Shown here in pieces: positions 10,811 to 17,030 of a stretch of DNA of 64,000 nucleotides. Within the stretch, counting starts at the first letter, position 1, and each line of letters begins with the position of its first letter. Location of the stretch: assembly GCA_036567785.1 (NCBI GenBank), contig DATCTV010000060.1, positions 62,001-126,000 on the forward strand. Direction: 5' to 3'. The translations under genes were made by a program, and so were the position numbers. The notes beneath the pieces were generated by a model, which ran no database searches, was not told the origin of the DNA, and worked only from the letters and a program-made list of their open reading frames with translations. This DNA is from Desulfomonilia bacterium. GTDB lineage: Bacteria; Desulfobacterota; Desulfomonilia; UBA1062.

Positions 10811-11221
10811 ATGATAAAGTTGATAGCCATCATCCAGTGTCATATAGTTCATGAAAGATGCCCCGGATATTATTGCGACAGGGCATTCTCAACAAAAACA
10901 GGGGGCTTTGAAAACCTTGATCTTTCAAATGATGTCAGAAAGCTGTCTTTCACCTGCGGCGGCTGCTGTGGAAGGGCAATACACCGGAAGCTGAGCCTTC
11001 TTAGAAGAAAGGCCAAACAGTCCGATGGCATCGAGGCCCACGAGATACTGGTTAAACTTGCCAGCTGTATGACCAAAGACAACTATCATGGTCCAGCCTG
11101 CCCCCATCTGGACTATATCAAGGAACTGATACATAAAACCGGACTGAGCTTCTCCTGCGATACCGTAATCTCAAAAAAGGCGCAGGAGAAAAGGGCGGCA
11201 GGTGTTTACAGGCAAGGTTAG
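10811..11221 (+). CDS. CGGC-domain protein
   Basis: A 136-residue protein of the CGGC family (putative metal or Fe-S binding; function unknown). It carries the defining CGGCCGRA motif near residue 50, an early CPGYYC pair and later cysteines near residues 87, 99 and 117. It starts 12 bases after the beta-helix gene and is probably the last gene of the same transcript. No membrane segment or signal peptide. Confidence 0.75.
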   Translation: MIKLIAIIQCHIVHERCPGYYCDRAFSTKTGGFENLDLSNDVRKLSFTCGGCCGRAIHRKLSLLRRKAKQSDGIEAHEILVKLASCMTKDNYHGPACPHLDYIKELIHKTGLSFSCDTVISKKAQEKRAAGVYRQG

Positions 11222-12742: not shown

Positions 12743-13570
12743 TCAGGCATATAAAATCTTTTGTTTTTTAAGCCATTCAAGGATAATTCCTTTCACTCTG
12801 TTATCCTTCCTCAACTGATGGGGTGCTCCTTCAAGTATAATCTTCTGGGGGAAATGTGGTGCAGCTTTATAGATTCTGTCCGCGTGAGAAACAGGCACCA
12901 CAGTATCACTGTTGCCATGTATGATGCAAAGAGGCACATCCTGAGGAAGCCATCTGATAAAATTCTCTGCTTTGAGTGAGGTAAAACCATAATACCATTT
13001 ATTGATATCATCAGGAGACATCGGGTCTCTTATAAGCCCCAGTTCCCTGAAGTGTGATGCCATGAGTTCTTTATCTTCAGGGATTATCTGAGACAGATCC
13101 GCTGGGGTCGCCATCAGCATCAGACTTCTGATATTCTTCTTCTCCAGGGCGGCGAATCTTGCCGCTATTGCCCCGCCCGCACTGAACCCGATTATATTTA
13201 TTGCCGCATTATCCGATCCGGGCAATTCCGAAACAAGATCATATATCTTCACAAGGTCTTCATGCCATAGATTCAGATCGATATTCCCTGATGATTCACC
13301 ACACCCGCTGAAATTGAAAACGACACTGATGAATCCATTATCCGCAAGCAATTCAGCCAATGGAACATATCCCATGTCACCTGGCAAAGGCTTGCCTCCC
13401 GGGATGCCGTGACATATTATAACAACAGGCGACAAACCTTTTTTTTCAGGGAAGTACAGCCAGGCCTTTATCGTCCGTTTCCCTGAAGTTAGAAGATATT
13501 CTTTCGATTTCATTCTGGAGCAGTCCAAATCTCCTGTAAACCAATGCCCAGGCATATATTTCTGTCTCAT
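12743..13570 (-). CDS. Alpha/beta hydrolase (serine esterase/peptidase-like)
   Basis: A cytoplasmic alpha/beta-hydrolase fold enzyme of unknown substrate. The oxyanion region is CHGIPGG, the nucleophile elbow GFSAGG (Ser about 130), the acid Asp lies in GNSDTVVP and the base His in GAPHQL. The N-terminal 125 bases overlap the upstream TPR gene if the ATG at 13570 is used. A later ATG at 13513 shortens the overlap to about 70 bases but lacks a good ribosome site, whereas 13570 has GAGGG upstream. Start uncertain, family secure. Confidence 0.82.
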   Translation of the reverse strand: MRQKYMPGHWFTGDLDCSRMKSKEYLLTSGKRTIKAWLYFPEKKGLSPVVIICHGIPGGKPLPGDMGYVPLAELLADNGFISVVFNFSGCGESSGNIDLNLWHEDLVKIYDLVSELPGSDNAAINIIGFSAGGAIAARFAALEKKNIRSLMLMATPADLSQIIPEDKELMASHFRELGLIRDPMSPDDINKWYYGFTSLKAENFIRWLPQDVPLCIIHGNSDTVVPVSHADRIYKAAPHFPQKIILEGAPHQLRKDNRVKGIILEWLKKQKILYA

Positions 13571-14588
13571 CAAAGATTATTCCCTCAGTTCCAGGTTCCT
13601 GTCTTGCAGGTATCCTATGTTTTGCGGCAAGAGACATTATAGTATTTGAAGGTATTTTAAGCATCTCTGACGCCTTCTCCAGAGTTATTCTTCTGAAATC
13701 CCTGTTGTCATTTTTTTTGAATACAAACGTTTGAACTATTGCGTTCTTGGTCTCCTCGGGGTCGATAAGATATGCCTTTTCAATTACTTCCAGATAGCCC
13801 TTTTCCTGCTGATATAAGACATTCGCCAGTTCAACGAGAATCCGGCTGTCATTAGGATAGTTGACAATTACCTTATTGAGAATATCCGCTGCATTCTCCA
13901 TGTCTCCAAGGAAGAAATATATTTCGGCAATATAGAGGAAGGTGTCTCTGTCATTCTCTCCAAGTTCAAGGGATTTCAAAAACATCTCAAGTGCAAGATC
14001 CAGATGCCCGAGTTCCCTGTGGCAGATACCTATCAGTTTGAATATTAAAGAGCTGCTTGAACATAAGACTTTCGCTTTTTCCAGATCGTCCGCAGCAATT
14101 GTATAATAGCCATGGGACATTTTATCTTTTGCCCTGCTCATGAATATTCTGAACCTTTCTTCAAAGTCTTTGACGGAAAGGCTGTTGGCAGGTGTCCTGA
14201 AATCAAGACCGGATGTGCAAAGGTCAATATATGAAGCACTCTCATTTAGAACACCGTCGTAATCAAGAGATTCAACCACCCTCTGGCACAGGTTCTTTAT
14301 TGGAAGCATAGTGGAAGCCTTGTTGGACACTGCAAGACTTGTGATCAGGCTCTCATCCCCTTCCATTTCCGAGAGATGCCTTGCCTCGTTTGTCAGTTCC
14401 CGGAAGAAGTGATTTGTCATGTCCATCGAGTTTTCTATCGGGATAGGCATTGCTGACTTATATTCGCCGCCGGGGCATGTATATTCAAAACTTACCCAGA
14501 GTTCATTATACTCGGCATCAACTCTCTCAACTTCAATTGAAATCAGTTCAATCGCTGCCTTTGTCTGTTCAAGTTTTCCTCTCATCAT
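13446..14588 (-). CDS. TPR protein with C-terminal MerR-like helix-turn-helix
   Basis: A 380-residue protein of unknown role. Residues about 170-290 form three to four TPR-type helical repeats. Residues about 305-365 look like an excisionase/MerR-type HTH (ITLEKASEMLKI, then an Arg/Glu-rich wing). The N-terminal 120 residues are mixed alpha/beta and unassigned. Its 3' end overlaps the hydrolase gene. It could be a DNA-binding scaffold; no partner is visible. Confidence 0.72.
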   Translation of the reverse strand: MMRGKLEQTKAAIELISIEVERVDAEYNELWVSFEYTCPGGEYKSAMPIPIENSMDMTNHFFRELTNEARHLSEMEGDESLITSLAVSNKASTMLPIKNLCQRVVESLDYDGVLNESASYIDLCTSGLDFRTPANSLSVKDFEERFRIFMSRAKDKMSHGYYTIAADDLEKAKVLCSSSSLIFKLIGICHRELGHLDLALEMFLKSLELGENDRDTFLYIAEIYFFLGDMENAADILNKVIVNYPNDSRILVELANVLYQQEKGYLEVIEKAYLIDPEETKNAIVQTFVFKKNDNRDFRRITLEKASEMLKIPSNTIMSLAAKHRIPARQEPGTEGIIFDETEIYAWALVYRRFGLLQNEIERISSNFRETDDKGLAVLP

Positions 14589-14679
14589 TCACAGGTTTAT
14601 TCTGTGCATGCAAAAAAGTCAATAATGCCGGCATGGGAATTAATGAAATAAAGATATCACCAAAATACAGAGAAAACGT

Positions 14680-14709
14680 TTGGAAGCACTATTCCTGTTA
14701 TGATATAAA
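14680..14709 (+). promoter_or_regulatory. Possible promoter of the DUF1573 gene
   Basis: TTGGAA, an 18-base spacer and TATAAA lie about 40 bases upstream of the ATG at 14750. Pattern-based only. Confidence 0.35.
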
Positions 14710-14749
14710 CCCTTATGCAAATTCAAAGACATATACCGGAGGATTTATT

Positions 14750-15448
14750 ATGCTGAAAAAAGGGAGCCTTGCTGTAATCGTAGCTGCAATAATGTTTGCT
14801 GCCATTTCATCCATTGCATATGCAGCGCCAAAAGCTGCGATTGACGAATACGTGTTCAATGCCGGAGATATACCTCAGGGAAAAGCCATAATTCATGATT
14901 TCATTATTAAGAATACAGGAGACATGCCGCTTGAAATAAAAGTCAAACCCTGTTGAGGGGTCAAAATCAACGCCCCGGTGGGGCCGATAGAACCAGGAAC
15001 CATAGGAAAAATACACGTGGAAATAAATACAACTCATATAAGGGATTCATATAAAAAAGAGATCAATGTCACGACAAACGACCCCAATAAAGGGGCTTTC
15101 ATACTGACTGTAAATGCGACTGTAAGGGAGACGCTGTCGATAACCCCTCCATATATTAATTTAGGAAGTGTATCTGTAAACTCAAAAATCAATCAGCCCA
15201 TAAAAGTCGAAAACAAGGGAAAGAGTACCGTGAAAATAACGGCTATAAGTGTTAAGTCTGCTGCCAATCTGAGCATAACCCCTGATAAGAATATTATAAT
15301 CAAGCCCGGCAAAACAAAAGACCTCATGTTAAAGCTTGATTCAGGAAACAGTCCCAGTACCATTGAAGGAACCATATCTATCAAAACCAATATTCCCAGT
15401 CTTCCTGAAAAAATCATACCGGTAAGAGCGGAGGTTCTTGCCAGATAG
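14750..15448 (+). CDS. Exported DUF1573 protein, candidate selenoprotein (in-frame UGA)
   Basis: A 232-codon frame interrupted only by TGA at codon 69 (14954-14956). It starts with ATG behind GGAGG and a signal peptide ending in AYA. The segment before the TGA (FIIKNTGDMPLEI, then VKPC) and the one after it (GVKINAPVGPIEPGT, then VTTNDPNKG) form one continuous DUF1573/ASH-type beta-sandwich. The UGA falls exactly at the place of the family's conserved SCGC cysteine motif, giving Cys68-Sec69-Gly. A second beta-sandwich follows (residues about 130-230). A SECIS-like hairpin lies just downstream. Known family: mostly uncharacterised exported proteins. Inference: an extracytoplasmic thiol/selenol redox or metal-binding site. 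A nonsense mutation is the alternative, but the downstream frame shows no other decay. Confidence 0.72.
14954..14956 (+). other. Putative selenocysteine UGA codon
   Basis: In-frame TGA directly after a Cys codon (TGT) within the conserved cysteine motif of DUF1573. The frame on both sides encodes one domain. Recoding needs selA/selB/selC/selD elsewhere in the genome; none lies in this window. Confidence 0.7.
14972..14984 (+). promoter_or_regulatory. Putative bacterial SECIS hairpin
   Basis: GCCCC, loop GGT, GGGGC: a five-pair all-GC stem whose loop starts with G and lies 20 bases after the UGA. From memory, the bacterial SECIS consensus asks for a stem-loop with G in the first two loop positions about 16-37 bases after the UGA, and this fits. 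A competing GGGG (14957-14960) pairing also exists. Confidence 0.6.
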
Positions 15449-15482
15449 GAGAAGATTACATTTTGGCCTCCATACAGGTATC

Positions 15483-17030
15483 ATGAAAGAACGATTCGGA
15501 AGAAACATCCTTACCGTAGGTGGCCTTACAGGTATCAGCCGTATACTTGGATATATACGCGATATGGTGACAGCGTGGCTTCTGGGTGCCACAGGGCTGG
15601 CTGACGCCTTTTTCATCGCCTACAGGATACCAAATCTTCTCAGACGCATTATGGGAGAAGGTGCGATAACCATTGCAGTTGTTCCTGTTTTCAATGAAGT
15701 CAAGGAAAAAGAGGGCCTTGAAAAGGCATTCAAGATGGCTGAGAGCGTTTTCACTCTCATGTTCATAAGCCTTGTCATTATCACCATCATTGGTGAGCTT
15801 ATTGCCCCCGGGCTTGTTGCCCTTCTTGCTTTTGGAAAAATCAACACTGGCGATTTTCAGGTTGCCGTTCATCTTACTCGAATAATGTTTCCGTTTATTC
15901 TGCTTATCGGAATAGTTTCTCTCTTCATGGGAATTCTCAATTCGGTAGGACACTTTGCAGCACCTGCCGGGGCCCCGATCCTGCTCAATATCTTCATGAT
16001 CGGAATACCCGTAATATTTTATGTCTGGTATCCATTCTTTTCATCTCCTGCGGATGCCCTTGCATGGGGGGTGATAGCCGGAGGGGTTGCTCAAATCCTT
16101 CTCCAACTGCCTCAACTGAAGAGATACAAGGTGCCAATAAGATTCAATGCCGATTTCAGGGATAAAAACATTCGGCAGGTGACAAGACTTATGGGTATTG
16201 CGGCAATCGGTGCATCAATTTATCAGATAAATGTTCTTGTAGGAACACAGCTTGCATCATTTCTTAAAACCGGCAGTATCTCGTTTCTGTATTACGCTCA
16301 AAGACTCCTTGAACTCCCGCTTGGAATTTTCGCATTTGCCGTTGGTAATGTAATGCTTCCTGCAATGAGTTCGGCATCCGCTCGCATGGACAACACTGAG
16401 CTTTCATCCCTGATATCGCGCTCCATTGTAATGGTTCTCGTATTCACCGTGCCGTCTTCTGTTGCATTGGTTATACTGGCGGAACCAGTTACCGCCGTTC
16501 TTTTCATGAGGGGTGCATTTACTATCGCTGATGCAAAAGAAACCGCCTATGCATTGCAGATGTATTCAATATCCCTATGGGCAATAGGTTATGTACGTAT
16601 CCTTAATCAGGCCCTGTATTCGATGCAGGAAGCAAAGACCGTCGTGAACATAGGATGGATGGCCCTGGTTGTAAATGTAGCCATGAGTCTCTTATTGATG
16701 TTCTTCATGAGACATGCAGGAATTGCCCTTGCAAGCAGTATCTCTGTATTCTTCCAGCTTATAATTTTCCACTTTATCCTGACAAGAAAGCAAATTAAAT
16801 TCAGCATGTCGTTATACAGAGACTGCCTGAAGATAATTACGGCATCATTCATTATGGGAATAGTGCTTTATCTGTTCATTTTACATAATTTCTGGCAGCA
16901 CGGTTTGAACACGAACAGCCTAATAATGCTTTCAGCATGCATTATTGCCGGAACCGTCGCATATTTTGCAGTGCTTTATATTTCAGGAATAAGACCGGCA
17001 AAATTTTTCTCACAGAGAAGAGTCCATTAG
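15483..17030 (+). CDS. murJ: Lipid II flippase MurJ (MviN)
   Basis: A polytopic inner-membrane protein (about 14 hydrophobic segments) of the MOP superfamily that flips lipid II for peptidoglycan synthesis. The N-terminal signature is VGGLTGISRILGYIRD, followed by RIPNLLRR and GEGAITIAVVPVF. The length of about 515 residues is typical. The frame is open from 15438, but the ATG at 15483 puts the family signature at the normal place. It lies 34 bases after the DUF1573 gene and may share its transcript. Confidence 0.95.
   Translation: MKERFGRNILTVGGLTGISRILGYIRDMVTAWLLGATGLADAFFIAYRIPNLLRRIMGEGAITIAVVPVFNEVKEKEGLEKAFKMAESVFTLMFISLVIITIIGELIAPGLVALLAFGKINTGDFQVAVHLTRIMFPFILLIGIVSLFMGILNSVGHFAAPAGAPILLNIFMIGIPVIFYVWYPFFSSPADALAWGVIAGGVAQILLQLPQLKRYKVPIRFNADFRDKNIRQVTRLMGIAAIGASIYQINVLVGTQLASFLKTGSISFLYYAQRLLELPLGIFAFAVGNVMLPAMSSASARMDNTELSSLISRSIVMVLVFTVPSSVALVILAEPVTAVLFMRGAFTIADAKETAYALQMYSISLWAIGYVRILNQALYSMQEAKTVVNIGWMALVVNVAMSLLLMFFMRHAGIALASSISVFFQLIIFHFILTRKQIKFSMSLYRDCLKIITASFIMGIVLYLFILHNFWQHGLNTNSLIMLSACIIAGTVAYFAVLYISGIRPAKFFSQRRVH

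Follow-up and report, generated by a model that had tools for sequence, protein, structure and literature searches.

A reading frame in the 64-kb stretch of DNA analyzed here (64,000 nucleotides, hereafter the window) encodes a protein with a DUF1573 domain and is crossed by a single TGA codon. This locus raises two questions: is the codon read as selenocysteine (Sec), and what could the resulting protein do in the cell?

A DUF1573 gene with one in-frame TGA

The initial annotation described one frame of 232 codons with a single TGA at codon 69, directly after a cysteine codon, and inspection of the window confirmed this arrangement. The gene and the features surrounding it are as follows:

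13446 to 14588, minus strand: divergently oriented gene; TPR protein carrying a helix-turn-helix at its C-terminus
14738 to 14742, plus strand: likely ribosome-binding site GGAGG, 7 bases 5' of the ATG, as read from the sequence
14750 to 15448, plus strand: predicted selenoprotein coding sequence, 232 codons with Sec69, stop codon TAG
14750 to 14824, plus strand: predicted signal peptide, residues 1-25, with a probable cut between AYA and AP, from the translation
14951 to 14953, plus strand: Cys68 (codon TGT), position -1 to Sec and sole cysteine in the protein
14954 to 14956, plus strand: in-frame UGA, predicted Sec69, the only TGA in the frame, followed by Gly
14972 to 14984, plus strand: bacterial SECIS hairpin GCCCC-GGU-GGGGC, within the coding sequence, assigned by comparative tests and the bSECIS rule
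15483 to 17030, plus strand: murJ (lipid II flippase), 34 nt 3' of the selenoprotein gene

The TGA had been placed inside a DUF1573 domain, and the Pfam match (PF07610, residues 31-125, E-value 4e-20) indeed spans it, with 72.1 bits against a gathering score of 26.1 bits. A second Ig domain of the HYDIN/CFA65 type (PF22544) covers residues 129-226. AlphaFold predicted two Ig-like domains with a mean pLDDT of 92.4 and placed Cys68-Sec69 in a loop of domain 1, between short strands 63-65 and 71-74. The predicted N-terminus, MLKKGSLAVIVAAIMFAAISSIAYA followed after the cut by APK, resembles a signal peptide, and an N-terminal helix (residues 2-23) is seen in the AlphaFold model of the DUF1573 selenoprotein; the protein is thus likely exported. 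The best matches among solved structures were HYDIN/CFAP axonemal Ig domains, CEP192 SPD-2 domains and an uncharacterised Porphyromonas protein (2qsv). These searches returned fold likeness only, with no function and no known enzyme of the same fold. Because standard gene callers end the frame at codon 69, genes of this kind can easily be overlooked or annotated as fragments. Most other readthrough frames in the 64-kb window are antisense to, or overlap, longer frames.

Conservation of the UGA codon and presence of the Sec machinery

An ortholog with exactly one TGA was found in all 24 genomes examined from the host bacterial family. The TGA occupies one invariant alignment column in all Sec orthologues, giving Cys-Sec-Gly in 24 genes (hereafter CUG genes) and Thr-Sec-Gly in two. 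Aligned Sec orthologues share 30-43% identity with the window protein, and both halves of the protein are conserved. Relatives from the phylum that were checked at this column carry Cys or Sec: Cys in non-Sec relatives (SCGCT, outgroups) and Sec in other selenoprotein relatives (UGCT). A sequencing error, considered from the start as a possible refutation, is excluded because the same TGA is kept in 24 genomes. Several orthologues end in an ordinary TGA stop, and UGA is therefore not globally reassigned.

All the selenocysteine genes looked for were present in the host genome (97% complete): selA (500 bits), selB (359 bits), selD (378 bits) and a tRNA-Sec with anticodon TCA (UCA). The selD gene (L001 1501-2415) in turn encodes a selenoprotein, its in-frame TGA lying in GAGUACKIG. 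Among the 24 family genomes, selA was not found in seven, three of which are 98-99% complete. Since these seven genomes all carry tRNA-Sec, and five of them selB above the cut-off, assembly gaps are the likely cause of the undetected selA. The near-complete genomes G007, G009 and G016 have the UGA gene and tRNA-Sec with no selA found, which could reflect either an assembly gap or a diverged SelA.

A SECIS hairpin downstream from the UGA

A five-pair GC hairpin with a GGT loop had been noticed 15 bases past the UGA. We located it at 14972-14984, with 5 bp, a 3-nt loop (GGU) and a UGA-to-loop spacing of 20 nt. The bSECIS constraints are a loop of 3-9 nt, a stem of 4-16 bp, a G in the first two loop positions, a spacing of 16-37 nt and an MFE of at most -7.5 (PMC13188914). 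The window hairpin falls within these limits, as did none of 100 synonymous recodings of the window gene. The scripted rule recognized 20 of the 24 CUG genes, against 7% of synonymous recodings; in its strict form it missed the remaining four and both Thr-Sec genes. An Rfam search of positions 14000-16000 gave no match.

Judged by raw folding energy, the window hairpin does not stand out on its own (z about -1); comparative tests were used because thermodynamic folding of the single hairpin was not significant. Across 26 distinct sequences, a six-pair helix showed 94.2% standard pairs, with 13 cells changed on both sides; none of 500 shuffles did as well, and slid controls were at most 63% paired. 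The pairs observed amounted to 5.9 of 7, compared with 3.8 of 7 expected when the genes are recoded synonymously according to their individual codon usage, and the clearest excess of stability along the gene in such a comparison was found at the hairpin site. The proposed SECIS therefore conforms to the bSECIS rule, with covariation and recoding controls in its support. Comparison across genomes makes it near certain that the UGA at 14954 is read as selenocysteine, and the selenoprotein interpretation given in the initial annotation is supported by the machinery, the conserved TGA, the SECIS and the Cys or Sec of relatives at this column.

The hairpin also encodes conserved residues after Sec, APVG in the window (14978-14989) and APGG in orthologues. 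The non-Sec paralogues L025, L038 and L040 have not retained this Ala-Pro-Gly-Gly stretch, which makes it look as though the SECIS had shaped the protein sequence after Sec.

A family-wide subgroup with a displaced partner cysteine

The initial annotation did not regard DUF1573 as a described selenoprotein family, a view that has to be corrected. OS_HP2 (pfam07610) was listed as a selenoprotein with the motif UxC (PMC2398784), DUF1573 selenoproteins are listed with the motif UGC (PMC9312934, PMC13188914), and an NCBIfam model (NF041425) exists for the OS_HP2 family (seleno)protein. What is new is a monophyletic CUG subgroup present throughout the host family. Its motif is [P/G/R]-C-U-G-[V/A] in 24 genes (C-U-G-V in the window) and H-T-U-G-V in two. 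No Sec member has the +2 cysteine, which places the subgroup outside the UGC/UxC definition. As initially proposed, the UGA sits at the DUF1573 cysteine motif, where Sec occupies the column of the first Cys in the ancestral CGC; what is unusual is therefore a partner Cys at -1 instead of +2. The spacing from NTGD to Sec is equal in L015, L021 and UGC proteins, so the Sec columns are equivalent and it is the partner cysteine that changed place.

In a DUF1573 tree of 92 rows, one clade (100/100), drawn entirely from the host family, united the CUG genes with both Thr-Sec genes and with four paralogues devoid of Sec (CxCGG, CxxCNG). The next node (95/82) added mainly CGCT proteins and few UGC proteins, most of the latter being placed elsewhere. 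L037 (SCESCNG), a non-Sec paralogue in the host genome, was the sister of the window gene (99/85), and the exchange of Sec and cysteine is therefore fairly recent. UGC paralogues coexist with CUG genes in several genomes of the family. A second DUF1573 lineage of the host family, nested in the UGC group, carries Cys-Cys-Gly at the Sec column (eight rows, L056, L122 and L124-L129; 100/100), and its position in the tree indicates that the cysteine moved from +2 to -1 there on a separate occasion. The Thr-Sec-Gly orthologues (L023, L094 and L027, L097, from genomes G005 and G011), which lie beside murJ, kept Sec and lost the -1 Cys. The -1 cysteine is therefore not indispensable, and the Cys-Sec couple is not universal.

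The distribution search covered one phylum, with 395 genomes drawn from it and 42 belonging to the class, and revealed no close match to the subgroup outside the host family. Full-length Sec orthologues scored 237-327 bits, and the best outsider, devoid of TGA, 167 bits. TGA-bearing relatives outside the family in which the motif was read all carry UGC, except one with UGS (L055). Named relatives found belong to the Desulfobacteraceae.

Genomic environment of the selenoprotein gene

The gene is located directly 5' of murJ, on the same strand, in 23 of the 24 family genomes, with a gap of 18-169 nt (mostly 27-46), and the divergent TPR-protein gene is a neighbour in 21 of these 23. The gap of only 34 nt in the window suggests that the selenoprotein gene and murJ share one transcript. 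A promoter and terminator consensus scan gave promoter matches no commoner than in shuffles. Genome G001 contains two tandem Cys-Sec copies (L005 1498-2199 and 2407-3159, minus strand), one of them reading GCUG, along with a third that is truncated at a contig end; murJ is absent from the flanks examined around the tandem copies. Neither murJ nor TPR neighbours were found in the flanks examined around DUF1573 genes outside the subgroup. A few genes upstream in the window (10811-11221), a CGGC-domain protein (PF08821) is encoded, which is cysteine-rich and possibly a redox or metal protein.

Putative function of the selenoprotein

We propose that the gene encodes an exported DUF1573 selenoprotein of two Ig domains, which would carry a vicinal Cys68-Sec69 thiol/selenol redox site in the cell envelope (probability of about 0.6). 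SelB and Sec-tRNA(Sec), aided by the hairpin at 14972-14984, would decode the UGA at 14954, yielding a protein with vicinal Cys68-Sec69 in a loop of the first Ig-like (HYDIN/PapD-like) domain. As the protein has no cysteine other than Cys68, the only possible internal bond is a Cys68-Sec69 selenenylsulfide, and the redox couple would consist of the thiol/selenol and selenenylsulfide forms of these adjacent residues. The product would most likely act as a small envelope thiol/selenol redox protein, with its resolving cysteine shifted from +2 to -1. Selenoproteins that have Cys homologues are commonly assigned a redox role, which by analogy is likely for Cys68-Sec69 as well.

The main rival, to which we give clearly less weight, also assumes a selenoprotein and sees in the Cys-Sec loop an envelope ligand site for soft metals (e.g., Hg, Cu, Ag, Zn), not a redox catalyst. 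A ligand role would be in keeping with a CGC/UGC/CUG/CCG loop carried by an Ig scaffold that is not enzymatic, with the Thr-Sec orthologues devoid of a partner cysteine and with the lack of a known enzyme of the same fold in the structure searches made. However, the conserved neighbours include no metal gene, and no conserved third ligand was identified.

It is improbable that the protein is an ordinary OS_HP2 selenoprotein with a drifted motif, functioning as the UGC proteins do and lying beside murJ by an accident of genome history. The superfamily and the Sec column are shared, all 29 subgroup rows match NF041425 weakly (best E-value 2.3e-26), and synteny can persist by descent inside one bacterial family. 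Yet the window protein reaches 82.9 bits, below the curated cut-off of 100 bits, compared with 108.9 for a UGC protein; the 100/100 clade stands apart from most UGC proteins, several genomes carry UGC paralogues alongside the CUG genes, and the +2 cysteine is missing throughout the Sec members.

A functional link between the selenoprotein and MurJ is a hypothesis drawn from gene position. A bolder and quite improbable extension would tie selenium supply to cell-wall synthesis: the Cys-Sec protein might protect or switch MurJ or another envelope partner, or failed decoding of the UGA under selenium shortage might lower murJ expression. Finally, that the UGA does not encode Sec, the gene being a pseudogene or the codon a sequencing error, a stop or another residue, is very improbable: the genome assembly is fragmented (64 contigs), but the recurrence of this TGA in 24 genomes, the conservation of both halves of the protein, the hairpin covariation, the dedicated Sec machinery and the ordinary TGA stops of several orthologues argue against it.

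In an ortholog kept by all 24 family genomes examined, Sec is thus fixed while the partner Cys moves from +2 to -1. Together with the exchange of Sec and Cys among paralogues of the same genome, this constitutes a natural experiment on the role of the second cysteine of DUF1573. No functional study of the exported DUF1573 family was found in the literature searched, and the constant murJ neighbour offers a first handle on this selenoprotein family.

Comparison with known systems

The subgroup shares with OS_HP2 selenoproteins the DUF1573 domain, (predicted) export, the Sec column and a SECIS just downstream. OS_HP2 proteins have the motif UGC, with the partner Cys at +2, whereas the subgroup has CUG, with the Cys at -1 and none at +2; it also differs by forming a separate clade, below the NF041425 cut-off and fixed beside murJ. 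HYDIN/ASH-type Ig domains (2qsv, 2e6j, axonemal HYDIN) share the fold, and these matches hint at neither catalysis nor Sec. The C-terminus of thioredoxin reductase is Gly-Cys-Sec-Gly, and a tandem copy of G001 likewise has GCUG. Adjacent Cys-Sec (CU) is also found in HgcA and in the Csac_0668-type 2Fe-2S protein (PMC13188914). The vicinal Cys-Sec is common to these three proteins and the window protein, but folds and families are unrelated and the likeness is one of analogy only: the Cys-Sec of the window protein is predicted to lie in the loop of an Ig domain, not in a C-terminal tail or at a corrinoid site.
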